Part shown: positions 2,346 through 55,865 of the stretch, piece after piece
Position numbering within the stretch: the first letter of the stretch is position 1
Layout of the letters: each line of letters begins with the position of its first letter
NCBI GenBank assembly: GCA_903813345.2
Contig: CAIIXF020000010.1
Span: 10,592,349 to 10,656,348 of the forward strand
DNA from: Owenia fusiformis
Taxonomy: Eukaryota; Annelida; Polychaeta; Sabellida; Oweniidae
Reading direction: 5' to 3'
Length of the DNA: 64,000 bases
Translations under genes and position numbers: made by a program
The notes under the pieces: model-generated
What the model was told of the DNA's origin: nothing
The model's database searches: none
Seen by the model: the letters and a program-made list of their open reading frames with translations, nothing else

Positions 2346-5300
2346 CACTCATCTTATTAAGAGTTCATATCGCATGTTTAAAGTAAAATAACCTCAGAAC
2401 AACTGATCTAAATCCTTTAATTTCCTTTATCAGTTTGTAAAATTGAGCATTCAGTTAATTTGCATTTCCCATGACTTGGTTTGTAGGTATGTCCAATGTT
2501 CAAGTTTATGGTACAGTTACTGCATACCTGGTAAATATGTCTTTCAAATGTACTTAAATGTATTTATAAATATCTATCTATTATTATTATTCTATAAAAT
2601 TAAAACCTTTATGTATTGTTATAGAAACTGCTAATGTGTATGTACATGAGATGTTTTACTGGATATGTACACGCATGGCATTTGACAAGGATAATTTAAA
2701 CTTCCTTCTTATGATTCCCTTCTACTACTAGTAGTTTGTTTCAGATGTTTTTGGTATTTTCTAAATGCTAGTACAACATCATTATAAATGGATTCTCATG
2801 AAAAAACAACAACTTAATTGGAACCCCAATTTTATGTGTTGACATTCTGTCTTTGACAACCATCCAATGGCATATTATTTCAGAGACCCTGGGATACATG
2901 CTTGAAATAGACATTACATGACTTATTGTGTACTTTCAGTTGAGATTTCTAATCTGACCCGAATGTTCAATGTGAGATACAGTACAACCTTATTCACATC
3001 CCAAGTTTCATTTATTTTTTCAGTGGGTTTCCATTGTAAAAGTTTCCATAAAGTCAACAAGAACATGGTATTGACTTACCTATGACTATCTATGGTTCCA
3101 TTATATGCTGATTTTGCAGACTTTAAATATCGAGAAACGAATAGCACATTACCTGATTTGACATTTCAGTTAGGAAATTGGCTAAATTTGTATCAGAGGC
3201 TAAATAATAATGTCATGTTTATTAGAACTTGCAGCATACCCATGTTTTCCAGGGGTTCTTGGAAGTAATTTTTAGTACTTTCTTTACTTGATTTAATGAG
3301 CATACATTGCCAGTTTGTCGCAGAAACCTCTAGTTTCAAACTTGAGGATGATAATTTGGACACTGTTAGTGTTATCTAGCTTTTTTTATTAAGGCTGTAA
3401 GATTAGATATGAGTAATTTCATATGGTTTGGCAATAAGATGGGCATACAGATCAACATTTCCAACAATTATAGATACCGCAGAGCCATTTGCCACATTGG
3501 GTCTATGAGAGCTATCTGTGTATTTTTTCTGTCTAACTTTAACCAATCGGCTGATTTAAGAAATTGGAGGAAAGTTATTTGACTGTTTATTCTGAATAAA
3601 TATGTCAACTTCCAGAGTTTCTGGGTTTAGTTTCCACCTGAAATATTAATTTTCTACTGGTCGACAAAAACTATTTATTTGGACCTTAAAACTTTCAATT
3701 TGGAAAAATCTCGCAATCTTATTTCTAGTTTGATGCATCGAGAGATTTCTCTAGGTTTGATCTGACATTCAATTCTGGATTCCTTGGAAGATATTATACG
3801 GTAATAATGATATCTCTGGCAAAGGTATCTGAACGATCTTGCATTGCTTTTAACATTTCTAGCCATTTCGTTCCCCACATTTTTTTCACATAATGTCATC
3901 GTGGTTTTGTTGTTAATTTTATATAACATTGTCTAAGTTTTTGTGAATACTTTCACTACCATATCCATGGCTTTCATTCATATGAAACAATTTATTTTAT
4001 TTTTTTTTTTTTGTTTAATATATTTCCCCTAAGCTACTCTCCCGTTAGACTTGAACTTTAGCCAAACAGGCTGCTTTTTGTTGTTATTGTAATTATTGAT
4101 TCGGATAACACTATTACATGTTTAGTATTCTGAATTTCGACTTCTTGGACCAATCACTATCAAATTTTATATTCATTTTTTGTGAGTTATTTTGGCAATC
4201 AATGCATTAATTGTAGGACTGCTTTGACCTTTGCAAGTGTCAATAAATGTAGAGGTTCAATATACAGATTACAGACTAAAGTACAATTCAAAAATGTCTC
4301 AATAGCTTGAGTAAGATTACCTGGATTACTGACTAGGGTTGATTCTATCTCTACAAAATCTTTGCGAGAATTTTGATAGAAACTATCATTTCTATTAAGG
4401 CCTTCAAGTTCATCTCAATTGTATTGATCACAAAACTACAAAGCTCCATTTTATGATGGGAAAAATTCAACAATAGGCTTTTCCCCATTTATCAGAAACT
4501 TCAGTTTGAAACAAATATTTCACTAACTTGAAATCATGTTCATGAGAAGCAGATAGGCGAGAGGTTAATGACATCAGAGAATCAATAAAAGATTCAAAAC
4601 CAAATTAAATATTCCACAATAGCGCGTTATGGTATTTTCACGAGTTTGAGGGAAGCAAGGTCCATAGTAATGATCCCAAATGATGTTATATCATTCAACG
4701 GAGATATTTCCTGTGCCTCGAATGTATGCTTTTGGTCATATAAGCATCCTTAGCATGGACTTTCACCATCGGTAATCGTTTGGCCATCTCATGTTAGAGT
4801 ACCATGTCTTCCATTTTGAAATATTCATACCAACTAGGCTAAATGGTTAAGGTTTAGATTTAAAATTTAGAGTTTAGATTGAGAACGAGTCTCTGGGAAC
4901 AATCCTCTTTCTCCTGTAACAATATGTGACACAGAAATTGATCTATGCTTGACTTTGCTTTATGTTGCATATTTAAGAGTTAAATTAATCTCCTGTTTTT
5001 AAAGGATGGACAAAACATCAGATTGCTTAAAATCGTAGTTTTGAGAAATATTAAAGCTGCTTTCCATTTAGAAAAACTTAAGCTAAATTGTTATCATTTC
5101 TCAGAATCTCTGGTAACCTTGACCATACTTCATATTTCTATGTAGGTGACATTGAAACTTCAAAAAATATATGTAATTTACCTAAGTTTCTGTTTTAGTG
5201 AACTTCCAGATTGTTTTTCTAGATCTGATGTTATGTCAAACATTCATCTTTTTTAGATCCATTTTGGTTGAGTTTTAGAATAAAATTGATGTACCTGTCA

Positions 5301-6214
5301 TTGGACAGGATTTTCCTACAGCGTAAGTTGTGCTGGAGCGACGTCGTCTATAATGACATTGTTTGCCGTGACTTCTAGCTGTATAGCTATTGCCAGCTGA
5401 CAGTTTCTGCTTTCATTGGCCTATTCAAAAAGGCTGTCAAATACTTGTATTTATAATCTATTAAAAGATTTTGATCTAGAAAACTATATTTCCATGTCTT
5501 TGACAAAATTCAAAGTTTTTGTTGACTCATCACCAAACAATTATTTTGCCCAGCTTGGGGTATTCTCTTTTGGTTTTAGGTATGAAGACAGAAAATTCTC
5601 CAATTCACTCTTGTCAAATTGAAAATTTGAAGCATGAAGCTTGTTTCAACTACAGTAGTTGGTTATGGGAAATCCTTGTTCAGCAACAATAGCTGTTTTG
5701 ATCAAAATATTGTACAAGTATTGTCATTTGATCTAGGGCTGTTAACCCGATTTCCATGGATAAGGAGCTTTATTTCAGAAAGTCCATGTGACACACATTA
5801 CCAGTATTGCATATAGGCCATTTTCCCATTTTGCGATTGTAGATTTCTACCTGCTTTGGGACTAGGAACATTTTAAGTTCATTTACTTTTCTAGATAGCT
5901 TACTCTAGCCTTTTCTTCATATTTTGATAACTACTAGGATAATGTTTTTGACCAAAATTTATGGACAGATTTTACATGCTTGTCTGTTATCTTCAATTCA
6001 GACTTGTTCTCCTCAAATACTGAGTCAAACATATTGAACATATAAACCGCTGATAAACAGAACATGAATCTATAAGCACTAGATTACTAGAACTTGAATC
6101 AAAACAAAATGATTCTATTAATTTGAACCTACTATGAGGCTATGCAATTGGATATGCTCGCTGAAACTGTAATATGACCTCTAATATGACTATTATTCTG
6201 ATGGCGGCTCATTT

Positions 6215-6480
6215 TGAACCTTGGTCAAACTTTGGTTTATAGGCCTTGAACTTTGGTCATTTGGACCTTTGGTGTGTGCATTCAGACATAAACTGTGGTC
6301 ATTTAGACCTAAAATTTGGTCATTTAGAAATAACATGTGGTCATTCAGACCTAAACTGTGGTCATTTAGACCTAAACTGTGGTCATTTAGACCTAAAATG
6401 TGGTCATTTAGACCTTACCTAACATGTGGTCATTTAGACCTGGACTGTGGTCATTATAGACCATGGTCATTTAGACCTTC
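6215..6480. repeat. 21-bp minisatellite
   Basis: Degenerate tandem copies of TGGTCATTTAGACCTAAACT plus one base. Because 21 is divisible by three, the array reads through as an open frame with a seven-residue period (WSFRPKL). The composition and the lack of splice or start context argue that this is not a gene. Confidence 0.8.
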
Positions 6481-6762
6481 AGTATTCAAAATTCCATCTT
6501 GAAAAATCATAACATTTCCCTACCTGTCCAAGTACATTATTTCAGGAGCACTAGGGGCCGTAATGGTTCATGTCCAAACAAATGAAGATAGACTAGACAT
6601 CTAGTAAATAAAAGTTCCAAAAACTGCAAACAAATGACTGTTGAAAAAATTCAACAAATCAAGCAGATCATCTGAACTAAAATCCATGTGCTATTTACAG
6701 CTATGTACAACTAGCCTAGTCTCTTACAAAGGTGTGTTTCCGTTGGCAGCTAAGCAAAAATA

Positions 6763-6912
6763 GACCTAGTTATCGGTGCATATGCATGTCCACTCAGCTG
6801 TACTACTCAGTTTTAATTTATTCAAATTAATACTACTAACAGCTGGAATCCGATAATAAGGGTTATTATGCGATATGAACTCTTAATAAGATGAGTGTAA
6901 TAGAAATTCATT
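6763..6912. repeat. Inverted copy of the 1744-1878 repeat block
   Basis: This block reads, in reverse complement, as the segment at 1744-1878 (shared landmarks: TCCGATAATAAGGGTTATTA and CCTAGTTATCGGTGCATATG). It then continues with CTTAATAAGATGAGTGTAAT, whose reverse complement stands at 2343-2365. It may be the far end of a larger element starting near 2335. Confidence 0.6.
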
Positions 6913-7140
6913 ACATGTCATGGGCGCTGACATCTTGTTTTTGGAAGTGAATACTTCCGGGTTTGAAAATAATTTTCATAAACTTTTAAGTGCATGAGTC
7001 AAATCAAACAAAAGTAATATATTCATTTCAATTATTTTGACGTAATGAGATATTATTTCAAAACTAAAAACACTTGAAATATAGATTTAATTATATTCAT
7101 TTCCGCAACAATCAACGAGCGCATGCGTACTTATAGTTCC

Positions 7141-7148
7141 TGACGTCA
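7141..7148. promoter_or_regulatory. Palindromic CRE upstream of ABHD17
   Basis: A perfect TGACGTCA lies 150 bp upstream of the ABHD17 start codon. Full CREs close to transcription starts are common CREB/ATF sites in animal promoters. The position fits a proximal promoter, but no transcription start can be read directly and a chance match cannot be excluded. Confidence 0.4.
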
Positions 7149-7297
7149 TTTTCCGACATACTGAAAAACTTTTTGTGAATTTTCGCTTAGACAAAACAGG
7201 AATCCCGGAGTTACATATTTAGTAGGAAGAACATTAATAAGTGTAAGGTGTGTCTATTATACCCATGTAAACTTTTGGTTAGGAATCGCACGTCAAG

Positions 7298-7944
7298 ATG
7301 AATGGTCTTTCTTTAGGTGAGTTGTGTTCTCTGTTCTGTTGTCCTCCATGTCCATCCAAAATCGCAGCAAAACTTGCCTTCCTCCCTCCAGAACCAACGT
7401 ATTTGTTCATATCAGATGAGGCAGGATCGAAGTTCAGTCTACACCTAACTGATCGAGCAGAGTGGCAGTACACACAAAGAGAATTAGACTTTATTGAAGT
7501 TTTCAAAGCCAGAACGTCCAAAAACAATCACATCGCTTGTGCATATATACGCTGTTCACCAACTGCAAAGTATACACTGCTATTCAGTCATGGAAATGCT
7601 GTTGATCTGGGACAAATGGCAAGTTTTTATATTGGACTAGGATCACGATTAAACTGCAATATATTCAGTTATGATTACTCTGGTTACGGAGTTAGCTCAG
7701 GGAAGCAATCAGAAAAGAATATGTATGCCGATATAGAGGCAGCATGGAATTCTTTACGCACACGCTATGGCATCAGTCCAGAACATATTATACTTTATGG
7801 ACAAAGTATCGGCACAGTACCAACTATAGACTTAGCATCACGGTATGAGGTCGGTGCCGTCATACTTCACTCCCCCCTGATGTCAGGAATGAGAGTGGCT
7901 TTCCCAGAAACAAAAAGAACGTGGTTCTTTGATGCATTCCCGAG
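7298..7944 (+). CDS. ABHD17: ABHD17 family depalmitoylase, exon 1 of 2
   Basis: ABHD17 proteins are serine hydrolases that remove palmitate from membrane-anchored proteins such as Ras and PSD-95. Exon 1 encodes residues 1-215 plus two bases of codon 216. The N-terminus has the family's cysteine cluster (Cys10, 14, 15, 18) that is palmitoylated to anchor the enzyme at membranes, followed by [15 protein letters not shown]. The core has the oxyanion-side [12 protein letters not shown], the DYSGYG turn and the nucleophile elbow GQSIGT with Ser170. The exon ends at the donor GTAAGC (phase 2). With exon 2 (24450-24666) the protein is 287 aa, matching the roughly 288 aa of vertebrate ABHD17B. There is no frameshift and no missing catalytic residue. 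Confidence 0.95.
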
Positions 7945-8797
7945 GTAAGCTTATAGTAATATTCAGATTTATGGTTAGTAAAACCTTGACTTGAAGAAAC
8001 TGTGAGTTAATTCAGGACCAACTTTAATTGTTCACTGATATATGTCCCCAAATTCATGATGTTTTGATATTGTGGGAGTTATTGATGTTTTCCAAAAGTT
8101 TGGTCCAAAAAAATGTTCACAATTGCGGTTAGTTAAGTCTAATTTTATGATGTTGTCATGTTACAAAGTCTCAAATATTATATTTTCAAAGGCACTCTTC
8201 ACTGATGAATATAAAGTTTAGTTTTTTTGGATTCCTTATCTTTTTATATATTCGCATTGTCAGCTGTTTACTCAGGTCATCAGGTGTTTAGATACATATA
8301 ATCCTTTAGTCCAAGGCTGTAAGTTGTTCTTTATTGAATGGTATTTTTTTCTTCAATATGATATTTTTTGTTTTGACAAGTTAGAATGTTGATATATATT
8401 TCGATGATACAGTATATGGTATTTTTAAGTTAAAATTATATCGATTATGGGTAGCTTATAAGTACAATAACCGTTCTGCCATATGTGTATGCCAAATTAT
8501 ATGTGCTTGTAGTTGTAGTAGAACTAAACCTAAAGTGATGTTTGGATAAATTACAAATGGTTGATACAAATTAGGCATAATCATGCAATATCAAATCCTT
8601 TTTGGGAAACTCAACTATTCTAAAATTGCTCTTATATTTATGATTTACCAGTTTCTCATCATGATGAACCATGCCATCTCAAATCTTCTCAGCCCTGAGG
8701 TGAAACAGAAAGATGCTATGAGTATCAGAATGCCAGTTTCTAGGATTTCTTGTTTTTATTTATTCATACTTTGGAACTGATATTCTTTGTGCTTTTA

Positions 8798-8912
8798 TAG
8801 TCTTGCTCAAAGACTGTATCCCCCCCCCGTTACCTTCACTCTCTTTACCTGCAATATACAGAGAGAAGGTTAAAGGGGGGGGGGGGAGTACAGGGTCTTT
8901 TAAGCAAGACTA
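8798..8912. mobile_element. 115-bp hairpin MITE with 9-bp target duplication
   Basis: The two halves are near reverse complements: TAGTCTTGCTCAAAGAC then a C-run then TTACCTTC on the left, GAAGGTTAA then a G-run then GTCTTTTAAGCAAGACTA on the right. Direct repeats GTGCTTTTA flank it at 8789-8797 and 8913-8921. A 9-bp duplication would suit a Mutator-like transposase, but that assignment is inference. Confidence 0.75.
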
Positions 8913-11900
8913 GTGCTTTTATATGAACTCAGTAACCCCAAATTTAATGAAAGCCATATTTTCTGGTTTATGTGGTTTTTAAACCATTCTCAAGATTTCT
9001 TACAAAAAATGAAAGAACAACTGATTTAATTGGCTTAATGATATCACATGATCAACATTGACCAGTAACTATTTCCGCTTGTGACAAATTATGATAGATA
9101 TGGATCTATAACACATTCCCTTACAACATTGTTGACTTTTATTCATCAGCAAAGTTGAAGTAGACATGGAATGAGGCAATTTGTATTTCACCAGACTGTA
9201 TAATAGGAAATGAGAATATGTAGTTCCTCATCTGAGCAGTGAAATTAAAAAACAGTACTAATAATAGTAATTGTACTTTACTCCTAGTCAAGTGAATAAT
9301 CTGTACTTGAAAACCATAATGACAATATAGATGAATTTGATAATGAAATTAATTTCCTCTTTCCTAGCTTCTACACATTTTGTTTTTCCAAGAAACTACA
9401 ATGTGATTCTATCATGTTGAGATAAATTTGCCAAACCCAACCAATAGTTACACTAATATTTATAATATTTCAACTAAAGAACATAAACTTTAGATTTATT
9501 TGTTTGTCAATATTATTTATTGGTTCACAGATCTAACTAAAGACCATGTATGAGTCACACGGGAAGCCCTGATTTATAGCTCTGTTAATGATCAATTAAA
9601 TCTTATCTTTTATTATCTATTTATTGATATCAATAAAATATTGGAATGTAATTATAATCTACACATTACTGAAAATAAGCAAACTAAACATAAGAATAAA
9701 GTGAAAGCTGTTTTATCTGAACACTGCTGGAATGGGCCAAAAGTGTTCAGATAGGCAGGTGTTCACTTTTTGAGGAATTGTAACATGGAAGTCTATGGCA
9801 GTTTTTGAAAATGGGACTGTTAAAAGCATTCACATTGAGAGGTGTTTGTACAGCTTTTTCTGTAAATCCTTTGAAAGTAAATTATACAGCAGCATACTAC
9901 AGGTCATCCTTCTTCAAAGGACTTCATTTATGCCTAAATTCATATACATGTACTTGTAAAATACCCTTGCAGCAAGGATGACTACAGGTATCTGAATCAT
10001 TCAAGGAAGAATCAGAGAGAGAATAATTATGATTCATCCATTCTAATAAATGCAGAGGAGGCAAGTGTCATATTCAATCATTTCTTGGAATTGTAATGTT
10101 TATTAAACAACTTCATCTGAAGCTTTTAGCATGCACCTGGCACTGTCCGTGTTAAATATATATGAGATCGTACATTAGCAGAACTCTCCTCCTAAATCAA
10201 AACTTGCTGTCTTGCTGTATTGATTGCTAGGTAGATATTATTGGCATATTTGGCTCTTGAATTGACATCTGTATGTTTTCTTATATTGGGTGCAAACAGA
10301 TTACTAATTTATTGAGACAGCATGACGTGACAGTTCAATTGAAGAAAAATTTCATTAGTCTTGCTTCAAGTCCTCCTCTGAACCCCCTCATCTTCATATA
10401 GTCCAAAGATTTGTAGTGGGGATGAGGGTCGCAAATGCTTTAGCTCTAAATGTCAAGCATTATAGGAAATTTTTGGTATTCAGAGGTAAAATTTTGATCA
10501 ATTTTTAGTTTGGAACCAGTGATCATTATATTATATTTTAGTTACAAATCAGTTTTCAAATAAGTGTAAACTAATTTTCAGAATCTCAAAAAGGTACAGC
10601 GCCAACTTGCCTCAATTTGTCGAACCCCCAACCTCTGGCTATAGGCCTCTATCTTAACTTGTACAAGGTTTTTCATACTTGTTTTTCCAAAGGGAGTCAA
10701 CAGGGGCTTAGTTTGATATTTACTTTCTGAAAATCAATTGAAAAGTATACCAATTAAACTTTTGGCAGTTTTGAATCATCAGTTGTTTTAGGCCATGTAG
10801 AATGATTAAACTGATTTGCATATCTTGTCATTAATTAACAGAAAAAATGATCCTACTCTAACTACCTTGATATCAATAAGATGGATTAGTATCAGCCTAA
10901 CCTGATAACATAGAAAACCAATAGGCGTGTATGTCATTACTGAATGTTATGGATATTGCCCAATATTGATGTATCTACTCAAGTTTATATATAGAAATCA
11001 ATAGATTGTTGAAAAGTACTAACCTTGCTTTTATAATTTATGAATATTTATGGAGGTATTGTAACCTCATTAATACCTGATACTCTTATCACAATTTATA
11101 TGGGCCTAAATCTATTTTTTCATATTATTGATACTGCGTACAAAACTCTGATGTATGAACTCTTAAGTGTGACCTTGACCTCAGTTGAATGACACTTTTT
11201 TGCCGTAACCTAGACCAAGAAGTTCTCAGTATGACATGAATTCTTGTGTTTGTTAGTAAGGAATACTCGGGGTGGAAGGTGTGAGAATTGTGCAAAAAAT
11301 GACTTTGTGAGCTGGATGGAGTTTCTCTGTATTTTTCATTCTATTAGGGTTTCCTGCATAAGGGATTTCGCCTGCGAAGCATATAACTCTTGCGAACATA
11401 TCTAAATATTGGTCCGAGGAAGACATACCTTGAATTTTTTAGAAAAAAATTGGCTAAAAATGGAAACTACAAAAAGTCAAAATGTTCAACTCAAACAAAA
11501 CTCTAGCTATTTAATATTAACACTATGTATTATTTAATGTTTTTCAGATGTTTAAGGACCTTCATTAGTGTACTAGTGTCTAGAAATAAGATAATTAAGG
11601 ACAAAATTTGGCATTTTTGATCATTTTCGCTTTCAGCAGTAACATATAGTTCCTTATATCTTGAGTTTAATGTTGACTGGTTGTTGCAATTTTGATTAAA
11701 TCTGTGCTTGTACATGTCTTCTTCCATTTAAGATACAAAAAATGTATATTGGACCACCAATGGTCATATTAGAGCTTTCAGATCTCCCCTACCCCATTTA
11801 TTATGAAAAATTAGTGAAACATATGAAAATATAAAATAACTTGAATTTATAAACTTTAACAATGTTGTAGCTATTCTATATCAATATTATGTATTATTTA

Positions 11901-14189
11901 ATGTTTTTCAGATATTTCAGAACCTTTATTGGTATACTAGTGCCTAGAAATGAGACATTTAAGGACAAAACTTGGCATTTTTTAAAATCATTTTAGCTTT
12001 CAGCAGTAACATATAGTTCCTCATATATTGAGTTTTATGCTTACTGGTTGTTGCAATTGTAATAAAATCTGTTTTTGTAGATGTCTTCTTCCATTTAAGG
12101 TATAGAAAATGTATAGTGGACCACCAATGGTCATATTAGAGCTTTCAGATCTCCCCTACCCCATTTATCATGAAAAATATAAGAAAAATATGAAAATATA
12201 AAATAAATTGAAACTATAAACTTTAAAAAGTTGTAGCTATTCTATATCAATATTATGTGTTATTTAATGTTTTTAAGATATTTCAGAACCTTTATTGGTA
12301 AACTAGTGCCTAGAAATGAGACATTTAAGGACAAAACATGGCTTTTTTGACCATTTTCGCTTTCAGCAATACCATATAGGTCCTTATATCTTGAGTTTAA
12401 TGCTTACTGGTTGGTGCATTCTTAGTCAAATTTGTTCTTGTACATGTCTTCTTCCATTTAGGATATAGAAAATGTATATTGGACAACCAATGTTGATATT
12501 ATAGCTTTCATGTCTCCCCTGCCCCATTTATGTAAATGAAAAAGTAATTTCAAATCATCAACTTTAACAAAATTGTAGCTATTCTCTATCGATACTATGT
12601 ATTATTTAATGTAACCCTCATTTGATTACATGTGTCTAAAATTTGGCATTTTTAGCATTCTGCATTTAGCAGTAGCATATAATTTTCCACAATTATAATT
12701 CTTTGATGATAGATTCATATATGTTTTTTATTGAATCTGTCTTCTCTGATTTAACTTAAAGAAAATGTATGTAAGACAACGAATGTTTTTATTAGAGGTC
12801 TAAGATCTGCCCTCCACCATTAAATGAGAAAACCAACACAAATGTTATTATTGCATGATAATATTCTTAAACTTTTCAAAAGTTTAGCATATTTATTAGC
12901 ACACTAAAATCAAAAAATGACACATAAATGGGCAAAATGACCAATGTTTCACTTTCAGCAATAGTTGTTTATATTTTTAGTTGAATGGTGATTAGTTGAC
13001 ATATTTTAGATCATATATATTCAACAATGTGTCTTGTTATCTTCAAAGCATGGAAAATGTGTTTTAAACACAAATATACATATTAGAGATAAAATTACTA
13101 CACTACTATATTTTTAAAAGATTACTCAAAAATAGCATAGTGCGAAATAATTTTGTAATTTCGCAGTTTACTCTCATATGAATCAAAAGATATGTCTTTA
13201 TATAGACATGATTGTTCACAACTCTCGAACTTAATCCAGCAACAGCCTGATTTTTCAAATCTCCCTGGTTCTATGTTAGAGCTGCATTTAAGTCATTTTA
13301 AAGGTAACTGGTCAACTGGTACCTAAGACAAGTCGTACCCAAGCATATATTTTGTTTTGAATCAAGTGTTGGACTGGGAATGTGTAAAGATATACATATT
13401 ATAACTGTAACATACTGTTCAGAAGTTTGAAGAATTTTCAGAAGAAATTGATATAATTTTGTAACATTTTGAGCTTTGAGTGTCAATTTATTTTGACTGG
13501 ATGTTCGAGTGAAGAGATATATGTTTATTCCACACATTCATAATCATTTTTTTTAAATATTGTATGTTTATGAGTGTTTGGAACAAGTGTCAGATTTAAT
13601 TCATCTTGGAAGATGGTATTATGATAAATGTATTGATTCATCAAATCTTGGGCCTAATTTCTTATTAAACAGATAATCTATTTGTCTAGGATTTCATATT
13701 ATCAGAATGAAGTCATATTCATGAAATTTAGCAATAAAATATTTTGAATAATATAATAATAGTATACAAGTAATAATATAGTATAATATTAATATCAAAT
13801 ATTATTTTGGTACTTATTCATACATGATATATTATTACACTTAGTATGCATGTGCATAATCCAATTTAGTTCCAATTGAAAAAAAATTAACAGATTAATT
13901 AACAAATTAATTGTTTGATTCATTTGTAGAAAAGTCACTGTTGTAATTATATTTATTTATATATATGTTTGGCAAAAAATGTTGTGAACAAGCACTTCGA
14001 GCACTTGTTTTATTAGTAAAAAGGTGATTCAAGTTAAATCAAAATGCTTTACTTAATCCATTGAGAAAAAATGTCTTCTAAATTCAAAAAAATATTGAGG
14101 ATTATTTGAGTCACATTATAACATGAAAACATAATTATACAAACTCAATTTGTTTTCCTAATATGCACCCATAATACTGGAAATAACTT

Positions 14190-14290
14190 GGGTACGAGTT
14201 GTATTGGGTACCAGTTATCTTGGGTACGAGTTGTCTTGGGTACCAGTTATCTTGGGTACGACTTGTCTTGGGTACCAGTTGACTAGGAAG
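14190..14290. repeat. GGTACC-containing short tandem repeat at the inner end of the foldback arm
   Basis: About four alternating copies of CTTGGGTACGAGTTGT and CTTGGGTACCAGTTATCT. One pairs with the inverse segment at 13304-13342 (CAACTGGTACCTAAGACAAG), extending the foldback stem. Confidence 0.65.
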
Positions 14291-14655
14291 CATTTTAAAG
14301 GTCTAAGTTGCTCATGACACCACAAGCTATTCAGATATGTAAGATCTCTAAATAATTTTTATAGTTCTGAGAAACTCATCCTTAAATATTGTCCAACGAT
14401 GTGCACTATGTTGTTTATTGCCACATGGACAAGTAGCAATACACCCTTGACTAGAAACTTTGTATAGCAATTTTCGCTGCCTTTTGCCATTTTACATTTG
14501 CGAATTGCCAAGGACATATGTTTCTTGTGTTGCTACGAAGGTTTGTTTTTGAGTACTGGTACAAGACACCAATCTTTGATATATCTTCAAATAGGTATTG
14601 CACTTTGAGATTCATATAGTAATTTAGAATGCTACCTTGAAGGACATAAGAAACT

Positions 14656-14868
14656 TTAAGAGCTCTTTTTAACTCTCATCCTTCTTTGCAAGCAACATTC
14701 TGTATCATCAGACTGAAAACAAATTCTCTCAACATTGAACTCCTTTGTCTTGTCTGCAGCACTGTAATAGACATGGGCCATAAGGAGAGTGTCAACTTCT
14801 TCATGATCAGTATTTGATAGATAAGTTGCAACTATCAGTTTTGCAAAGTTCAATAGCAGCTCTGCCAT
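14656..14868 (-). pseudogene. Degenerate fragment resembling HEEADT-motif ORFs of invertebrate repeats
   Basis: The 70-residue frame contains DHEEVDTLLMAHVYYSAAD and, 20 residues on, SDDTECCL. This spacing resembles a motif I recall from many uncharacterised invertebrate proteins of repetitive origin (HEEADT..., then a hydrophobic stretch, then S-x-DTDV). No longer frame surrounds it. It sits on the inner side of the right arm of the foldback element, so it may be a remnant of a protein carried by a related autonomous element. The family match is by eye only. Confidence 0.35.
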
Positions 14869-17496
14869 AAGTGAAATTCATCCCATTTTAGAGATACAGT
14901 AAGATTGCTTCACAAACCAAAGACAGCTTTACCATTTTGTAATCCTTTCCAAAATCATCTTGTTGGCTGTTCTTCATTTCACAATGTTTACATTTACCAA
15001 AATATCCCCAAGCCCAATATCTATCATGAACTTCCTAATTACACCACCCTTAGGTGTAATATGGAAATCACCAAGCATTTGACAACATTGCATTTGATAT
15101 GAGGGAATTCAACCAATATGGCTTGATCACTGGTTATAATTATCACAGTACTGTACCCCATTATTTTTAAATATATTCCAAGTATTGTACTATACATTGC
15201 ATAGATTCATGAGCAGTTTGCAACATATCATAACCAGAAAAGCCCAAATGGACAAAGATAGAGAATACCCGCCCCATTTGCAACTCAACTTTAAATGTCT
15301 TATTTTTAGACTTGTATACTCATGAAGTTCCTGACACATCTGAAAAATATCAAATAATACATAGTATTGATCTAGAATAGCGACAACTTTGTTAAAGTCT
15401 ATACTTTTAAATTGTTTGGTTTTTATATTTCTGGTTATTTTTTCAAAATAAATGGGGTAGGGGAGATATGTAAGCTCTAATATAATGACAGGCTTTCCAA
15501 TATATATTTTTAAATACCTTAAATCAAAGTAAGCAGGCAAAAGAACAGATTTGATCAAGAATCCATCAACCAATCAGCATAAAACTCAAGATATAAGGAA
15601 CTATATGTTATTGCTAACAGTGGAAATGATGAAAAATGCCAAATTTTGTTCTTCAATGTCTAATTTCTCTACACTAGAATACTAATGAAGGTCCTGAAAC
15701 ATTAATTATAGCAATCAATAACACATAAAGAATAGTTACATCTTTGTTAAAGTTTATACTGGTAGTTTGAAGTTATTTTTTATATTTTCCAGTCATCTTC
15801 CCTAATAAATGGGGTAGGGGAGAACTGAAAGCTCTAATATGAACATTGTTTGTCTACTATACATTTTCAGTACCTTAAATGGAATAAAACATGTACAAGA
15901 ACAGATTTAATCCAAAATGTATCAACCAGTCAGCATAAAACTCAAGATATGAGGATCTATATGTTACTGCTGAAAGCAGCATTGATTAAAAAATGCCAAG
16001 TTTTGTCCTTAAATGTCTCATTTCTAGCCACTTGAATACCAATAAAAGTTCTGAAAAATCTTAAAAATATTAAATAACACATAATATTGATAATAGAATA
16101 GCTACAACTTTATGAAAGTCTATAATTTCAAGTTATTTTATTTTTTTATATTTCTCGTTTATTTTCCATAATTGATGGGGTAGGGGAGATCTGAAAGCTC
16201 TAATATGAACATTGTTTGTCTACTATACATTTTCTATACCTTAAATGGAAGAAGACATGCACAAGAACAGATTTGATTGAAAATGCAACAATCAGACAGC
16301 ATAAAACTCAAGATATGAGGAACTATATATTACTGCTGAAAGCGAAAATGATAAAAAAAAATGCCAAGTTTTGTCCTTAAATGTCTCATTTCTAGCCACT
16401 TGTATACCGCTATAGGTTCTGAAATATCTTAAAAACATTAAATAACACATAATATTGACACAGAATAGCTACAACTTTGTTAAAGTTTATAATTTCAAGT
16501 TATTTTATTTTTTCATATTTTTCGGTAATTTTCCATAATAAATGGGGTAGGGGAGATCTGAAAGCTCTCATATGAACAATGGTTGTCCACTATACATTTT
16601 CTACACCTTAAATGGAAGAACATATGTACAAGCACAGATTTAATCAAAAATGCAACAACCAGTCAGCATTAAACTCGAGATATAAGGAACTATATATTAA
16701 TACTGAAAGCGAAAATGATTAAAATTGCCAAATTTTGTCCTTAAATGTCACATTTCTAGACACAAGTATACTAATGAAGGTCTTGAAACATCTGAGAAAC
16801 CTTACATAACACAAAATATTGATATAGAATAGCTACAACTTTGTTTGAGTTGAACATTTTGACTTCTTGTAGTTTTCATTTTTAGCCAATTTTTTCTAAA
16901 AAATTCAAGGTATGTCTTCTTCGGACCAGTATTTAGATATGTTCGCAAGAGTTATATGCTTCGCAGGCGAAATCCTTTATGCAGGACACCCTAATAGAAT
17001 AAAAAATACACAGAAATTCCATCCAGCTCATAAAGTCATTTTTTCCTTAACGGAGCCTCTTAGAAAATTTTCCACCCCGAGTAGAAGTTTGCAATGGCTT
17101 CGTGATGAATTACTTGATTCTAAAATTGAACTTTGTTCTTGTGATGCATCTTGACCGATCAAGGTATTACATATGACTGAAGGAACATACTGGTTTAACA
17201 TGTGATGGGCATCTTATAAAAATTCTGTTATAAAATCAGTATTCGAATGAGATCTGTAGTTACAAATTAACTTTGTACTAATTAGAATGTTTCAGAGGAT
17301 AATCATCTGTAATTTGCTCTTATTGAAGTGTTAACTAACATTGTTGTAGTGATACTAGGTGTCAAATTACTCAAAATGAATTACATAAATCAACTTCAGA
17401 TTAAGTGTATTGATTAAATTGTTGTGGGATAAGTTCAAAGCTTCTCACATTCACCCCGGGTGATCAATATCCTGAGTTTAGAATTTCGGTCCAGCA

Positions 17497-17590
17497 AGTG
17501 GTGACATATTGTTATGGTCTCCAACTTTTTTTAGACAACGTTTGGCGTTTGTAACAAAATGCAGGTGATAACATTTTGCATGTTATGCCT
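17497..17590 (+). repeat. Hairpin-headed dispersed element, copy 2
   Basis: GTGGTGACATATTGTTATGG, CTCCAACTTTTTTTAGAC, GTTTGGCG and a tail GTGATAACATTTTGCATG. The outer half of the head stem is missing. It lies within the tandem duplication. Confidence 0.65.
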
Positions 17591-18161
17591 TTCAGCAAGC
17601 AGAATTTTTTGTAATATTGCTCAATGTTGAGTCAATAATGACCAATCATCCTTCTGGTGATGAGAATTTGTTTCTGGTGATGATTTGGTGAGTTCTAAAG
17701 TTAAAGGGTACAGATGACACTTTGAAGAAGTTAAGTCAAACAGATGTAAACTTTTTCTTAACCACATTATCTTTCAAACACATATCTATCTAGAGAAATA
17801 TATATTTGGAAAATGGCACGGCTTGATACAGGACTAACACTGTGACTAAATGCATCTGACACAAACAAACTGTTATATTGGTGATACGTGTTTGTCATTA
17901 CATGGTGGCATTTAGATTATAGGAAATCATATCATTTCAGGTCTGTTGTCCAATTTTATCAATTTGTACACCTGCGTGCTCAACCATATCTCATTTTCAA
18001 GTCAATTAACTAGATCTGTGATACTGTGAGTGTTAATTGAAAATATAATTACAGTACCATAGCTGAATAATATTTATTATTGTGAAATCAATAGTACATC
18101 TTGTCCATAAAAAGGTATAAAAATGTCATATATTTTATAAAAGTTTAGTCTAGTAATCTTG

Positions 18162-19249
18162 ACCCAAGAAGTTCTCTGTATGACCTGAATTCTTGTGCTT
18201 GTTAGTAAGGAAGTTTGCAATAGCTTCATGACAAAATACTTGAATCTAAAATTGAACTTTGTTCTTGTGATGGGCATCTTATAAAATTCTGTTATACAAT
18301 CAGTATTCGAATGAGATCTGTAGTTACAAATTAACTTTGTACTAATTAGAATGTATTTTAGTGGATAATCATCTGTAATTTGCTCTTATTGAAGTGTTAA
18401 CTAACATTGTTGTAGTGATACTAGGTGTCAAATTACTCAAAATGAATTACATAAATCAACTTCAGATTAAGTGTATTGATTAAATTGTTGTGGGATAAGT
18501 TCAAAGCTTCTCACAATCACCCCGGGTGATCAATATCCTGAGTGTAGAATTTCGTTCCAGCAAGTGGTGACATATTGTTATAGTCTCCAACTTTTTTTAG
18601 ACGGTGTTAGACGTTTGGCGGTTGGCGTTTGCAACAAAATGCAGGTGATAACATTTTGCATGTTAATGCCTTTCAGCAAGCAGAATTTTTGTAATATTGG
18701 TCAATGTTGAGTGAATAATGTCAGACTAAATGACAATGTATATAAAATCATCCTTCTGGCGATGAGAATTTGTTTCTGGTGATGATTTGGTGAGTTCTAA
18801 AGTTAAAGGGTATAGATGAAACTTTTAAGAAGTTTAAGTCAAACAGATGCAAATTTTTACTTAACCACATTATCTTTCAAACACATATCTATCTAGAGAA
18901 ATAGATATTAGGAAAATGGCAGGGCTTGATACAGGACTAACACTGTAACTAAATGCATCTGACACAAACAAACTGTTATATTGGTGATACGTGTTTGTCA
19001 TTACATGATGGCATTTAGATTATAGGAAATCATATCATTTCAGGTCTGTTGTCCAATTTTATCAATTTGTACACCTGCCTGCTCAACCACATCTCATTTT
19101 CAAGTCAATTAACTAGATCTGTGATACTGTGAGTGTTAGTTGAAAATATAATTACAGTAACAGAGCTGAATAATATTTATTATTGTGAAATCAATAGTAC
19201 ATCTTGTCCATAAAAAGGTATAAAAATGTCATATATTTTATAAAAGTTT
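18162..19249. repeat. Tandem duplication copy 2, carrying the empty foldback site
   Basis: This copy reads GTTAGTAAGGAAGTTTGC without interruption at 18201-18218, where copy 1 is broken by the 5.8-kb element. It ends TTTATAAAAGTTT like copy 1. Confidence 0.85.
18563..18670 (+). repeat. Hairpin-headed dispersed element, copy 3
   Basis: The duplicate of copy 2, with the same block order and a more complete tail ending GCATGTTAATGCC. Confidence 0.65.
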
Positions 19250-32685: not shown

Positions 32686-33892
32686 TCAATATCTGCCATC
32701 TCTGTCATTCTTGTCATAACTACGACTTCGCTCCCTTTTCCTTTTCTTCTTGTGACATTCCCTACTTCTCTCTCTACTTCTATGACGCCTATGTTCTCTG
32801 TCACGGCTTTTACTCCTATGTCTCTCACGATAACTTCTATCTCTGCTTCTTGATCGTCTAGAAGAACCCTCAGTTTTAGGCTCTTGCTTTACTTCAGTCT
32901 GATTTTGAGCTAATATTGGTGCTTTAAATGGTCGAACTTTGCCACCAAAACGTAATTGACCAGATTCTTTGTTACCACCAAATCCTCCACCAAGTCTTCT
33001 TGGTACCCAACCTTTCATGTTCCTCTCGTGTTCAAACTCAGTGATAATCTCATGATTATCTAAAAGACTTTTATGTGCATGTTTCTGAGCCATATTTGCA
33101 TCTTTTGCATCGTTATATTCGACAAAAGCATAACATTTTGAGAATTGAGTCACAATGTCTCTTACTAGACGTAAGTGTTTGATGTCTCCGTAACTGGAGA
33201 AGAAGGCTCTGAGTGAGATTTCATCTGTGTCAGGATTGAGCCTGAAAAATAACAAATATTGACATGTATTTGTTATTCGAACATGACAAGTGATGTCCCC
33301 AGCATTAAAGCAAGTGGGCGCAGCACCCAACTGAGATTTTGAAAATCAGCTTGCACCCACCTGAAAATCCATTTGCACCCACTTGAAAATGAGAAAAATC
33401 ATGAAAAATTGGCATGTTTTGACCAATTTTGAGCTGCATTGTGAAAATGAGAATTTGCATCCACCTGAGAAAAAATGCTGTGGAGATAACTGATGACTGT
33501 ATTCACCCCTTCTTTAAAATGTAAAGAAAGTCAATATTTCACCTGGTATTTATTTGTTGAATCTGTTGGCGAATGATTTTAATATTTTAATTAGCAAGAT
33601 CACTCATATTGACATTTACTCCTATGCTGATCAAGTGCCTCACTGCAGGGGTGTAGCCAGGAACTAAGAAAATATAACCCATCGGTGCCTGGCTGCACCC
33701 ATGACACTGTCAATGTATTTCTTACCTCCCTACGAATATGGTATGATCTGGTTCACCCTTCACTTGAAGGTTGGGCTTATATTTTGCTCTAATGGCCCGT
33801 GTTATACCATTATCATGTGGTATTTCATCTGTGCCATCTATACTACCAATCTTTAGAGGATCATAGACTGTAGCCAGATTCCATGCATCCAT
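32686..33892 (-). CDS. SNRNP35: U11/U12 small nuclear ribonucleoprotein 35 kDa protein
   Basis: This protein belongs to the U11/U12 di-snRNP, which recognises U12-type introns in the minor spliceosome. Two exons, 33726-33892 and 32686-33241, are joined by a GTAAG...TTTTTCAG intron of 484 bp and give 240 aa. The start MDAWNLATVYDPLKIGSIDG is the family's conserved N-terminus. An RRM follows, with RNP2 IFVGRL (52-57) and RNP1 KCYAFVEY (91-98). Next come the diagnostic KGWVPRRLGGGFGG and SGQLRFGGKVRPF, and an Arg/Ser/Glu/His-rich basic tail (about 183-240) as in RS-type splicing proteins. The family's signature residues are intact. Length is close to the human protein as I recall it (about 246 aa). 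Confidence 0.95.
33242..33725 (-). other. SNRNP35 intron
   Basis: Contains a low-copy repeat with TTGCACCCACCTGAAAAT-type direct repeats (33300-33480). It also has a 59-bp palindromic piece at 33646-33704 (CAGGGGTGTAGCCAGG...CCTGGCTGCACCCATG), flanked by CACTG on the left and, after one extra base, on the right. Confidence 0.55.
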
Positions 33893-47578: not shown

Positions 47579-48427
47579 ATAACTCTTATAATGCAATGAC
47601 AATTTTTTCCATTTAAGAGAATTGTAGAATAACTCTCATAATGCAATGACAATTTTTTCCATTTAAGAGAATTGCAGAATAACTCTCATAATGCAATGAC
47701 AATTTTTTCCATTTAAGAGAATTGTAGAATAACTCTCATAATGCAATGACAATTTTTTCCATTTTAGAGAATTATAGAATAACTCTCATAATGCAATGAC
47801 AATTGTTTCCATTTAAGAGAATTGCAGAATAACTCTCATAATGCAATGACAATTTTTTCCATTTAAGAGAATTGTAGAATAACTCTCATAATGCAATGAC
47901 AATTTTTTCCATTTTAGAGAATTATAGAATAACTCTCATAATGCAATGACAATTGTTTCCATTTAAGAGAATTGCAGAATAACTCTCATAATGCAATGAC
48001 AATTTTTTCCATTTAAGAGAATTGTAGAATAACTCTCATAATGCAATGACAATTTTTTCCATTTTAGAGAATTATAGAATAACTCTCATAATGCAATGAC
48101 AATTGTTTCCATTTAAGAGAATTGCAGAATAACTCTCATAATGCAATGACAATTTTTTCCATTTAAGAGAATTGTAGAATAACTCTCATAATGCAATGAC
48201 AATTTTTTTCATTTTAGAGAATTATAGAATAACTCTCATAATGCAATGACAATTGTTTCCATTTAAGAGAATTATAGAATAACTCTCATAATGCAATGAC
48301 AATTGTTTCCATTTAAGAGAATTGTAGAATAACTCTCATAATGCAATGACAATTTTTTCCATTTTAGAGAATTATAGAATAACTCTTATAATGCAATGAC
48401 AATTTTTTCCCATTTTAGAGAACTGTA
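47579..48427. repeat. 50-bp minisatellite with a 150-bp higher-order period, upstream of GTPBP3
   Basis: About 17 copies of a 50-bp unit containing AACTCTCATAATGCAATGAC and ATTTTTTCCATTTAAGAGAA. Three variants (ending ATTGCAG, ATTGTAG and ATTATAG) follow each other repeatedly, giving a 150-bp higher-order unit. The last unit ends about 10 bp before the GTPBP3 ATG. Each unit has two ATGs and a T-rich tract followed by AG. Confidence 0.9.
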
Positions 48428-48437
48428 GCAGAAGACA

Positions 48438-51400: not shown

Positions 51401-54400
51401 ACCCCTCGAACCCCCGCTGGCTACGGGCATGTTTAAGAAGATTTGTTGATCTTCGCATTAGAATTCAAGGAAATTCCACCAAAATTAATATTGAGAATGA
51501 GAAGGTTATTCCAAAATTAGATAATTGCATCATTGTGGGTTACCCTATACATTTTTTGATTATTTCAGGACCTCAAAGCTTCACTGGGGAGGATTGTTGT
51601 GAGCTTCACATACATGGAAGCGCTGCCGTAGCAACAGCTATGATGTCAGCACTCGGCACAATTCATCAATGCAGACAAGCAGAACCAGGCGAATTCACGA
51701 AAAGGTTTTACAATTTTAATAAATCTTCATCCCTTGGTAATATGAGGGGTTTGTAGAAAAAACCGGGTACCGGGTAGTAAATCCTCCATGCTGGGTTCAA
51801 ACTTGGTACCCGGGTCATATTACATATAAGATGTTTTCCCTAGGAATAATATTCCATCCCTCTCATGAATTAAATAACCCCTATTAATCTCAATGTTCAA
51901 TGTTTTCTATAATAAAGCCTCCTTTTTATACCTCTCCCTGTTAAAAAATAGTTTGGGATACATCACAATTAAGACAGACAAGGAATGATTTTTTGAAAAT
52001 GCGCACAGGACACATTTTTGAAGAAGAGCTGAGACTGAGGTTTGAAAAAATTGTCAAAATCTTTATTCATTCCATGTCATAGCTGCAGTTTTTAAGAAGT
52101 TTTGACTCAATTCAGGAAAGTTTATTGATTTTAAAAGTTATCTTGCAAAACAAATGAAAAAGTGGACATCACCTTTTTTGATTCTAATGTACGTATCTAC
52201 AAATTTCTACATTTTAGATCTGAGATAACTGCTCTAATACTGCATATTTGATCAGAAAATCTTTTTTTCCGTAAATAAAATGAGGATTGTAAGGGAAACA
52301 TTGGATTGTTTTTGAAAAGATCGCTTCCAACATTTTACTCTCTATCTGCATCCTTTGGCTTAATTTCTAGGGCATTCCACAATGGTAAGCTAGACCTGAC
52401 TGAGGTGGAGGGCCTGGGGGAGCTGATACATGCAGAGACAGAGGCCCAGAGGAAGCAAGCTTTGAGGCAACTCGAGGGACAGCTCAGCCAGCTCTACCAG
52501 TCGTGGAGAACTAGACTCATTAAGGTCTCAATAGCAATACATTTACACATACATATACATGTAAAAGCTAGCATTGTCCAATATGAACACTGCTTGAATT
52601 TAGAAACGTCTTCATAGATAGGATGGGAGTTAATAGTACATCCATAATTTGGTACAGATCAAATGTTTACATTTCAAGATGTTCATTATGGGCTTTACTC
52701 ATCAAGAACCATGTTATCTAAATGTTTCTCATGATACAGAAAGATTTGTTGACTGTCAGAACGTGCTTTATTGTACTTTTTTTATACCCTGACATGCACT
52801 GTACTACACTCTTTACTGTACTGTGCCCTGTACTGTACTACATGTATACTATAGTATGCTGTACTATTAGTACACTATTTATTACATAAGTGATGTAAGA
52901 ATCATAAAGAATCATTAATCTGTTCAACCTCCTTATTCTGTGCCATTTGATCCACAATATCTGTAGAGAGGTGTTAACCCAGGGGTTTCACTGCAATACA
53001 CTTCTTAATACTTATGTGCCGCCCCAAAGACCCCCATTTTTAGCATTTTTTCCTTGTCAATTTCCTCTAAAGATTAAATGTTTCAATGTTTAATTCCTCT
53101 GAGACTAATAAATGACTAAAAAATCAGCTTTTCTACTGATTTGTTCCAGGCTACAGCAACTGATTTAACGATTTTAATACAATTTTCTGTCGAAAAACTG
53201 AATTTTGACTTAAAAAGGGTACTTTCTTAGACAATTTTCCATGTTTTTTCCTCTCAAATTGGCCATTTTCCATGTTTTATGCTCAAAGCCAAAATTGGTC
53301 ATGCTGCACATACTTACCCAAATTATCTCGAGTGAACCCCAGGGGTGTTAACATGCATATCGGTTTTACTGTATATTCAAACAAGTCTATTAAATTGCAG
53401 TGTGCTGCCAATATTGAAGCATTCATCGACTTCTCTGAGAATGACACGCTCGAAGATAATTTGTTGGAAGATGTGGAAAAAGAGGTGACACTTTTGACTC
53501 AAGATATACAGCAACACTTGGCAGATGGGAGACATGGTGACAGGCTCAGAGATGGAGTGAGAGTTGCGATTGTTGGAGAGCCAAATGTTGGGAAAAGTAG
53601 TCTGTTGAATGCAATGTGTAAGTCTTGCGTAAATCCCCAATTATAAGTTCTGTATCAAGCCCCAAGTGAAAGTTTTGCATGATGTCCCAAGTGTAAGTCT
53701 AGGATGTAGCCTCGAGTGTAAGTTTTGTATCAAACAAAAAATGACAAATACTTGATGTGAGACTATACGTATTTGTCTGTGAAAACATTTCAAATGTTTA
53801 TATGCCTTCTTTATGTTACTTCTAGTCGAAGTGTTCCTCCGATGCAGTGTGAACAATATCACACCCTTCTGTTATAATGTCACCACCAAAAGTAGTGGGG
53901 ACATATTGTATAGTCTACAACTTTTTTGTGGATGGTGTTCTGTGGCAGGCATCTGGTGTTTGGAATTTGGCAGTTGGTGTTTGGCAAATGGCAGTTTAGA
54001 CCTTTGCATGTTAATGCCATGTACATGTATGTAAATATATGCCTCATATCTTCACATTTTGTTTACTTAGAATTATCATACCTAATTTTACTTTAGGCAG
54101 ACGGCCTGCAGCCATTGTTTCCTCAATAGAGGGCACCACTAGAGACATTATAGAAACACATCTGAATATAGGTGGCTATCCAGTCTTACTAAGTGACACA
54201 GCGGGACTGCGTAAGACCAATAATGTGCTTGAGCTTGAAGGAATAAGGCGTGCAATTGAAAGGTAAAATGCTAACTTTGAAATTGTGTCCAGACACACTG
54301 TCTAAAAATGTGTTACAAGCTGTTAGAATTATTTTGTTCAGTATTGCACTGAAAAGGTCATGCTGATAGTCATGTATGGCTGTATCGGAAGGTGAGTGGC

Positions 54401-55865
54401 ACAAGAAATCGTTCAGACATTAAACTTGAAATTTTTACAAATGCAAGAGCAGACTAGTACCCAGATCTGATCAAGTTTTGGGCATGCTGGGTTATTTATT
54501 AGGAAGTTACTTTTAATAAGTATGATATTTATCACTGCTTATCTTGTTTAAAAACATATATGGAGTGAAGCCCATTAGGTACACGTGTCACATACTCCTC
54601 CCACTGAAACTTACTTTCCTGATTAAATATGGTACATCAAGTGACATCTATATTTTTCAGGGCAGAGAATGCTGATATTATTTTAGTGGTGCTAGAAGCT
54701 CGTAAGATAGCAGAACTAGCTGAATTAGAACCCCAGTTCAATCTAAACACTTACCTAATGGAGCATATCACCTCACTTGGACTCACCATTAACAGAACAG
54801 ACTCAGTTCAAGAACCAGTGATTGCAGCTGTTCTGAATAAAATTGACCTGATAGGGGATAGTTCACTGAGTGCAATAATCAGTCAGTGTCGCAAAGAGTC
54901 TGACAAAATGTTGAGTGTGACTGGAAAGTTGTCACACACGAGAGATGATAGTGCCAAATGTGACACAAGGGAGCAGAATGCCAAATATGACATCAGGGAG
55001 CAAAGCGCCAAAGATGAAACTAGTGATTATAGTGCCAATCTGAAATATGACACAAGGCAACATAAATCAGATGAATATACAGTGGAATATAATACTGAGC
55101 AAAATGAAACAATATTTCACTCAGAAAATATATCACCTGAGATAACAAACTCTAGTGTCCCCAACACTGAACAATTATTTATCAATAATAAAGATAAAAC
55201 AAAAAGGGACTGCCACACTAGAACGAGTACAGATGATGTATATGAGGAAATACCTGTAGTATGTACCTCATGTGTCTCTGACACTGGAATCAGTGATCTT
55301 ATCTCAACTCTACAACATCATCTTGAACAAATGTAAGAAATAAAGTTATTCACTGATTTGGGTAAAATAGATGTACAGGGAATATTGCAGTCTTTTTACA
55401 CAAGGCAACAGCCAGGTGGACCCTTAGCCTGCTGCATAAACCCTTGGTGCAGATAAAACGAGTGCTTGGTGTGGTGCCAGATGTCAATTTTGAATTTAAA
55501 TTTGTGATATTTTATATATTGCTGTTAATGCCATTTGATATATCTTATTTTAAATTATTCATTTGGCAAAGTTAGCCCTCCCCCATTTGGCAAGAATACA
55601 ACCTTTATATAGAATTTATTCTTCATATTTCAGGTGCACTACAGGTGCCACAGAAAGCCAGGGAGTATGTCAAGCCAGGCACAGGGAGCTCCTCACCGAG
55701 TGTCTATACAGCTTGGAGAAATTCACATCCCTGGGGGGCCAGGACTATGCTATAGCAGCACAGATGCTCAGGAACTCTCACCGGAATCTTGGCAAAGTTA
55801 TTGGAACTGTTAGTACAGATGATATACTTGATGTTATTTTTAGGGACTTTTGTATTGGTAAATGA
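48438..55865 (+). CDS. GTPBP3: GTPBP3, mitochondrial tRNA-modification GTPase (MnmE/MSS1 family), eight exons
   Basis: With MTO1, this enzyme installs taurinomethyl groups on the wobble uridine of mitochondrial tRNAs. Exons: 48438-48573, 49719-49856, 51569-51704, 52371-52524, 53401-53617, 54097-54262, 54661-55332, 55634-55865. Phases agree throughout and give 616 aa. Residues 1-24 are basic and Asp/Glu-free, fitting a mitochondrial presequence. The N-terminal folate-binding domain has [33 protein letters not shown] and [10 protein letters not shown]. The G domain has G1 GEPNVGKS (247-254), G2 TTRD (274-277), G3 DTAG (294-297) and G4 NKID (375-378). The C-terminus is FCIGK with the conserved Cys613. 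The human protein is about 492 aa; the excess is mainly an insertion in exon 7. Intron 3 has a weak donor (GTTTTA). Confidence 0.95.
50190..50327. repeat. 21-bp minisatellite in GTPBP3 intron 2
   Basis: About six to seven near-identical copies of CTATGTCACAAAGTATACAT plus one base. Two frames stay open through it (LCHKVYI and VTKYTYY periods) only because 21 is divisible by three. Confidence 0.85.
50453..51250. repeat. Diverged tandem duplication of about 480 bp in GTPBP3 intron 2
   Basis: The block at 50453-50760 (AAATATTGATCATAAAAGAG, ACTAATCTTATTTTATTTAA, GAAATGATTTTGCTTCTAGA) recurs at 50936-51250 with scattered substitutions and indels. Confidence 0.75.
53877..54018 (+). repeat. Hairpin-headed dispersed element, copy 5 (GTPBP3 intron 5)
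   Basis: Head stem ATGTCACCACC-AAAA-GTAGTGGGGACAT, then ATTGTATAGTC, a T-run, a GGTGTTTGG-type body and the tail TTTGCATGTTAATGCC. Confidence 0.75.
54950..55057 (+). repeat. 27-bp coding tandem repeat in GTPBP3 exon 7
   Basis: Four diverged 27-bp copies encode [27 protein letters not shown] and SANLKYDTR (residues 413-448). They lie in a hydrophilic insertion between the G4 motif and the G5-like SCVSDTGI. Confidence 0.8.

Follow-up and report, generated by a model that had tools for sequence, protein, structure and literature searches.

What kind of transposon interrupts one half of a tandem duplication in the annelid Owenia fusiformis, and what kind of protein moves it? The window analysed here, a 64,000-nucleotide stretch of assembly GCA_903813345.2 (contig CAIIXF020000010.1, positions 10,592,349 to 10,656,348 of the forward strand), contains a foldback-type element that encodes no intact protein (Table 1). 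With a probability of roughly 70%, we consider it a recently mobile, non-autonomous cut-and-paste transposon whose ancestor was an autonomous AcademX-type element with a DUF6589-related, nuclease-bearing protein. Judging by its relatives in the same genome, we suggest that it is moved by a large enzyme resembling a transposase joined to a DNA-cutting nuclease.

An insertion beside its unfilled target

A preliminary description of this locus had proposed that a 5.8-kb foldback element splits one half of a tandem duplication and leaves the other empty, that it made a 3-bp GAA target duplication, and that the segment was duplicated before the insertion. Each of these points held. Because the other half of the duplication keeps the unfilled site, comparing the filled and unfilled sites gives the exact ends and the GAA duplication: the element is flanked by GTAAGGAA on the left and GAAGTTTGC on the right, and the unfilled GTAAGGAAGTTTGC, which occurs once within the window, has a single GAA and no footprint. 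The foldback architecture is evident from long inverted arms, tandem repeats inside them and little coding sequence. A perfect inverted repeat is confined to the outer 14 bp, followed by unequal spacers (16 and 25 bp) and then by arms of 88% identity, which begin at 31 (left) and 40 (right) from the tips.

The duplication halves are 93% identical in a long alignment of 986 columns with 42 gaps; in two short stretches adjoining the insertion, identity is 89-90%. In a genome search with the second half, the two halves at this locus were the only copies of the segment among the 40 of 835 candidates scored, which makes a third copy improbable; the remaining matches correspond to a dispersed repeat of about 110 bp within it. 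Divergence adds support for the order of events: the duplicates differ at about 7% of positions, while the first tandem unit of the left arm is 99-100% identical to 39 other places in the genome.

About 100 copies in the genome, many of recent origin

Exact tips matching TACTCGGGGTGG were found 107 times in forward and 106 times in reverse orientation across the 498 Mb searched, compared with 6 and 5 for a reversed control pattern. Of the first 100 tip places listed, 86 can be joined into 43 pairs that face each other at a distance below 13 kb, with lengths of 446-11,646 bp (median 5,926). We tabulated flanking duplications for the window copy, L022 and 30 of the 43 pairs, 32 two-ended copies in all, and found an exact 3-bp duplication in 31 of the 32; 4 bp was found in none, nor anything longer. 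The duplicated trinucleotides are A/T-rich over the 31 sites, with an apparent weak AC-WWW-GT tendency by counts on both strands. Small derivatives of 446 and 794 bp (L010 and L009, respectively) retain both the ends and the 3-bp rule.

The first left unit showed 99-100% identity in all 40 places scored, the window included. Much of the spread is accordingly recent; the 40 were the best of 282 candidates, and other copies of the element are more diverged. In all, the family numbers about 100 copies, of which many are young.

A decayed transposase gene and its open-frame relatives

The core of the element holds five DNA matches collinear with an open frame of 1003 amino acids at another locus, L021, the last of them extending 20 bp beyond that frame. 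A 60-amino-acid piece of the longest remnant has at least 113 genome matches, window and L021 included (150 of 158 candidates scored). At L021 the frame is followed by an arm about 80% identical to the left arm of the element, in which one unit scores clearly (206.7 bits) and a second weakly (66.7 bits), and this arm ends in the exact tip. GGTGTG, the start of the left spacer in the window, also follows the tip in L021. The decayed gene pieces are accompanied by a tip and an arm in common with L021, and they are homologous to large open frames.

A search with the L021 protein gave at least 62 matches (46 of 832 candidates scored), consisting of L021 itself, two open frames at 47% amino acid identity, on C5 and C483, and others at 24-34%. 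In the end stretches compared, homology between C5 and C483 starts and stops exactly at tips TACTCAGGG and CCCTGAGTA; their tip TACTCAGGGACCCA has 23 and 28 genome occurrences, against 2 and 0 for the control. The C5 element (7,879 bp) has frames of 1274 and 327 amino acids and arms of about 706 bp at 85% identity, which start about 34-37 and 44-47 from its tips, and the C483 relative has a 3-bp duplication, AAT. A 14-bp tip, then unequal unique spacers, then arms is a plan common to the 47% relative and the window element.

More distant frames vary in their surroundings. L044 has a frame of 1602 amino acids with 28% protein identity to L021 and 708-bp arms at 95%, which reach the end of the element without spacers; if it starts with TA as the others do, its tips are TAGTTAGAAACCC and its duplication is TGA. 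L043 has a frame of 1509 amino acids and a left break at TATAGGTGAGG; the 10 kb of its sequence that were read showed no arms and did not reach its right end. A tandem array of about 49-bp units lies directly 3' of this DUF6589-related frame (L043, from about 6907), and such an array is also present at L081. The preliminary description had proposed looking for an autonomous copy: relatives of autonomous type exist, but no two exact TACTCGGGGTGG ends were found with an open transposase frame between them.

A DUF6589-related family with nuclease-like motifs

A profile of 13 related proteins aligned over 936 columns (probability 100, E value 2.8e-72) with a second profile made from three large frames at DUF6589 loci (L078, L079 and L080). 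By this profile comparison, the relatives of the element are homologous to proteins that score above the DUF6589 cut-off. DUF6589 itself (PF20231) exceeds its cut-off at 8 places in the genome, L078 among them, and 2 of the 8 overlap matches of the L021 search; L079 and L080 exceed it in a protein search. No Pfam family matched L021 at E values up to 10.

The 13 relatives conserve, toward the C-terminal end and in this order, the motifs IIDG(M), VFDRY, EEADT, SxDTDV and TGCD, and those read to their end have a Cys-rich tail. We take the order IIDGM-VFDRY-EEADT-SxDTDV-TGCD to match that of the FEN/XPG catalytic motifs, and counterparts in XPG and EXO1 were seen for two of the five. The nuclease of AcademX is named XPG-like. 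A DNA polymerase I (Pol I) 5'-3' exonuclease profile aligned collinearly with a score of 30.1, compared with a maximum of 26.7 over 40 shuffles and with 15.6 on reversal; this profile is narrow, its 81 sequences being that of Escherichia coli and 80 matches that are gammaproteobacterial by title.

Two of the DUF6589 frames, L079:413-6673 (2087 amino acids) and L080:2164-8133 (1990 amino acids), combine an OTU cysteine protease domain with DUF6589, the nuclease-like motifs and the Cys-rich tail, and possibly represent a transposon lineage with a deubiquitinase-like domain. The ends of L079 and L080 were not found: in L079, positions 415-455 and 8335-8375 form an inverted match of 41 bp (83%), and L080 has no inverted match spanning the frame.

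Assignment to AcademX and its alternatives

The preliminary description could name no superfamily for a 3-bp target. The relatives of the remnant, together with the 3-bp duplication, now point to AcademX, short of proof. AcademX elements make duplications of 3 or 4 bp and AcademH elements 9 or 10, a difference that seems tied to the encoded nuclease and helicase (PMC10045372, in the part available). The duplications of 31 of the 32 copies, of C483 (AAT) and, given a TA start, of L044 (TGA) are all within the AcademX range, and C5 has none. AcademX fits because of the 3-bp duplication and the nuclease-like motifs in the DUF6589-related relatives. Literature searches for Academ with XPG and, separately, for DUF6589 gave nothing useful; "academ" also matches "academic", so this is no test of absence. 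The whole word Academ is not present in PMC8277862.

Several observations weigh against this assignment. The C5 copy lacks a matching duplication (GCC/TGT), as does the L014/L015 copy (CTG versus TGA), and the left end of L021 was not recognised within 4 kb of added upstream sequence. The relatives of the element do not reach the DUF6589 cut-off directly: 2 of the 13 match at E values up to 1, L043 scores 21.6 bits against a cut-off of 27, and L078, above the cut-off in the genome search, has no DUF6589 match in the protein search. Similarity to nucleases is statistically modest. Pfam XPG_I (PF00867) reaches none of these proteins in the genome search or in a Pfam scan of the 13, neither the 13-protein profile nor L021 alone found a nuclease in the PDB, a short four-sequence comparison with XPG_I was no better than shuffles, and the Pol I exonuclease match has a probability of 11% (E value 0.0027 for the single pair). 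The name AcademX-like is a label assigned from duplication length and description.

We consider it unlikely that the driver is a DUF6589-related, nuclease-like transposase of a superfamily separate from Academ. Putative membership in Academ draws on duplication length and domain order, and two homologous frames carry an OTU protease domain, which is not known from Academ. Nevertheless, the 3-bp duplication and the putative nuclease agree with the description of AcademX in the available part of PMC10045372.

It is quite improbable that a different superfamily with 3-bp duplications (of the Zator, Harbinger or CACTA/Chapaev3 type) moves the element and that the gene remnant is a captured passenger. 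Gene remnants can be captured, and 3-bp duplications occur in Harbinger and CACTA relatives. They are also made by Zator (available part of PMC10045372). However, a scan of the 13 related proteins at E values up to 1 gave no Pfam transposase model, those of Zator, Harbinger and CACTA included; the exact tip and arm DNA are common to L021 and the element; and the C483 relative combines a similar tip with a 3-bp duplication.

The same plan of tip, tandem-unit arms and gene-poor core is known from Tetris (PMC4079207, in part), and one copy of the element, L005, contains a Mutator-like transposase frame (PF20700), as might be expected of a classical Mutator-group foldback such as FB or Tetris, moved by the transposase of a Mutator-like element (MULE). 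This origin is very improbable: the frame in L005 sits in a distinct 4-kb stretch that the window copy lacks, the core remnant matches the DUF6589-related family instead, and no MULE match was found among the 13 related proteins at E values up to 1. We rejected it on duplication length, 3 bp in 31 of 32 copies versus the 8-10 bp reported for Tetris in the same partial source. Finally, although cut-and-paste elements can excise and the analysis covered assembled sequence, it is barely credible that both halves were once filled and the second lost its element by precise excision, or that the insertion is an assembly error, given a single GAA without footprint, duplicates that differ by about 7% around an element whose first unit is 99-100% identical to other copies, and tips that recur 107 and 106 times with the same kind of duplication in 31 of 32 tested copies.

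Arms, nested insertions and other features of the window

Table 1. Positions of the element, its parts and its duplicated target within the window.
Feature	Position	Strand	Basis or remark
Foldback-type DNA transposon, non-autonomous, 5,820 bp	11264-17083		Exact tips and unfilled counterpart; tips recur in genome
Target-site duplication GAA, 3 bp, left	11261-11263		
Target-site duplication GAA, 3 bp, right	17084-17086		
Left tip, 14-bp perfect terminal inverted repeat TACTCGGGGTGGAA	11264-11277	+	Kept in the 11 two-ended copies compared
Right tip, 14-bp perfect terminal inverted repeat	17070-17083	-	
Unique left spacer, tip to arm, 16 bp (GGTGTGAGAATTGTGC)	11278-11293		One substitution in L006 and L011
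Unique right spacer, tip to arm, 25 bp	17045-17069		Different from left spacer
Left arm	11294-12531	+	88% identical to inverted right arm
Right arm (portion aligned with left arm)	15805-17044	-	
Left tandem array, about 3.7 units of about 367 bp	11505-12835	+	Unit profile; last unit degraded
Right tandem array, about 4.2 units of about 367 bp	15289-16834	-	Unit profile
Nested 984-bp insertion between 12-bp direct repeats CATTTTAAAGGT	13306-14289		Missing in L001 and L005
Decayed transposase gene pieces	14364-15143	-	Five DNA matches, collinear with the 1003-amino-acid L021 frame
Open transposase remnant, 73 amino acids, with motif ...HEEVDTLLMAH...	14659-14877	-	
Second copy of tandem duplication, without element	18153-19249		Alignment of halves; genome search
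Unfilled target site GTAAGGAAGTTTGC in second duplication copy	18205-18218	+	

Arms of about five 360-bp tandem units had been proposed; tandem units are present, but not five equal ones. The unit profile used for the counts in Table 1 also detects degraded units, unlike Tandem Repeats Finder, which gave copy numbers of 2.8 (left) and 4.3 (right). The 11 two-ended copies compared have the same two distinct ends, with single substitutions, and the left array is one unit longer in L001, L005 and L008. When the units of seven copies are placed in a tree, most of them group according to their place in the array. The arrays were therefore largely in place before the element spread, and homogenisation has not occurred within copies. 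Two cases depart from this pattern: left units three and four where an extra unit is present, and L006, which has fewer units.

The nested 984-bp insertion has inverted GGTACC-rich ends. It may mark a sub-lineage, being absent from L001 and L005 and present, in interrupted form, in L003 and L008. Other copies contain further insertions. In L005, positions 5557-9629 form the 4-kb insertion near the right end, and we rejected its Mutator-like frame (543 amino acids) as part of the element. In L003, two long open frames (560 and 1170 amino acids) lie at 3735-8927 within the copy, the longer with endonuclease and reverse transcriptase domains of a non-long-terminal-repeat retrotransposon. The reverse-transcriptase frame was likewise rejected, lying in the stretch that interrupts the nested insertion, outside the shared body.

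Elsewhere in the window, a tandem array at 47579-48428 comprises 17 copies of a 50-bp unit (94% matches), and the open frames at 7283-7948, 32686-33345 and 53209-55336 presumably encode proteins resembling an alpha/beta hydrolase, an RNA-binding splicing protein and a GTPase, respectively.

A model for mobilisation

The window element would have arisen by internal decay from an autonomous AcademX-type ancestor, whose large protein would have joined a DUF6589-related presumed transposase to an XPG/FEN-like nuclease part and a Cys-rich tail. Such a protein, produced elsewhere in the genome, could act in trans on the TACTCGGGG tips and the adjoining spacer sequences, excise the element and insert it at A/T-rich trinucleotides through cuts staggered by 3 bp. 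One insertion that followed the local duplication has left its record in the GAA repeat and the untouched twin site. The succession of tip, unequal spacer and arm offers concrete candidates for binding sites, and the arms may supply additional ones, as proposed for Galileo and Tetris (PMC4079207). More speculatively, the arms may be substrates of the fused nuclease.

A doubtful but consequential extension is that the long inverted arms are a functional trait of the transposase lineage, not a by-product of decay, with a fused flap- or hairpin-cutting nuclease processing arm hairpins or cruciforms. The open-frame relatives at 28% and 47% identity to L021 both retain arms of about 0.7 kb. If true, such processing would account for the success of foldback bodies here in a group other than Mutator and P, and the tolerance and use of long inverted repeats by foldback elements would become testable. 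Under the AcademX-type reading, about 100 copies, many of them young, are tied to candidate source proteins of the same genome, and a kinship with transposases is suggested for DUF6589, a family of unknown function in Pfam.

Comparison with known systems

Academ elements are reported to be enriched in bivalves (PMC10294476). The 3-bp duplications seen here fall within the 3 or 4 bp reported for AcademX (available part of PMC10045372), and the protein of the large relatives combines a presumed transposase with nuclease-like parts. The window element differs in having no intact protein and in its long arms of tandem units; the likeness is one of description.

In body plan, a close parallel is Tetris of Drosophila virilis, as described in the available part of PMC4079207. 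It is also non-autonomous, with an outer terminal domain followed by tandem units in inverted arms, and its unit number varies by one between two alleles, as it does here between copies. Tetris makes duplications of 8-10 bp and is presumed to belong to Mutator, whereas the element described here makes 3-bp duplications and has DUF6589-related source proteins. The 220-bp units of Tetris also form long satellites, whereas matches to the 367-bp unit look, overall, like short runs within arms (40 of 282 candidates scored).

Galileo, a member of the P superfamily (PMC4168063), likewise has foldback-like arms with internal tandem repeats, but its transposase carries a THAP domain (PMC4079207). The foldback body seen here apparently stands outside both the Mutator and the P groups, and would extend this body plan to another group of transposases.

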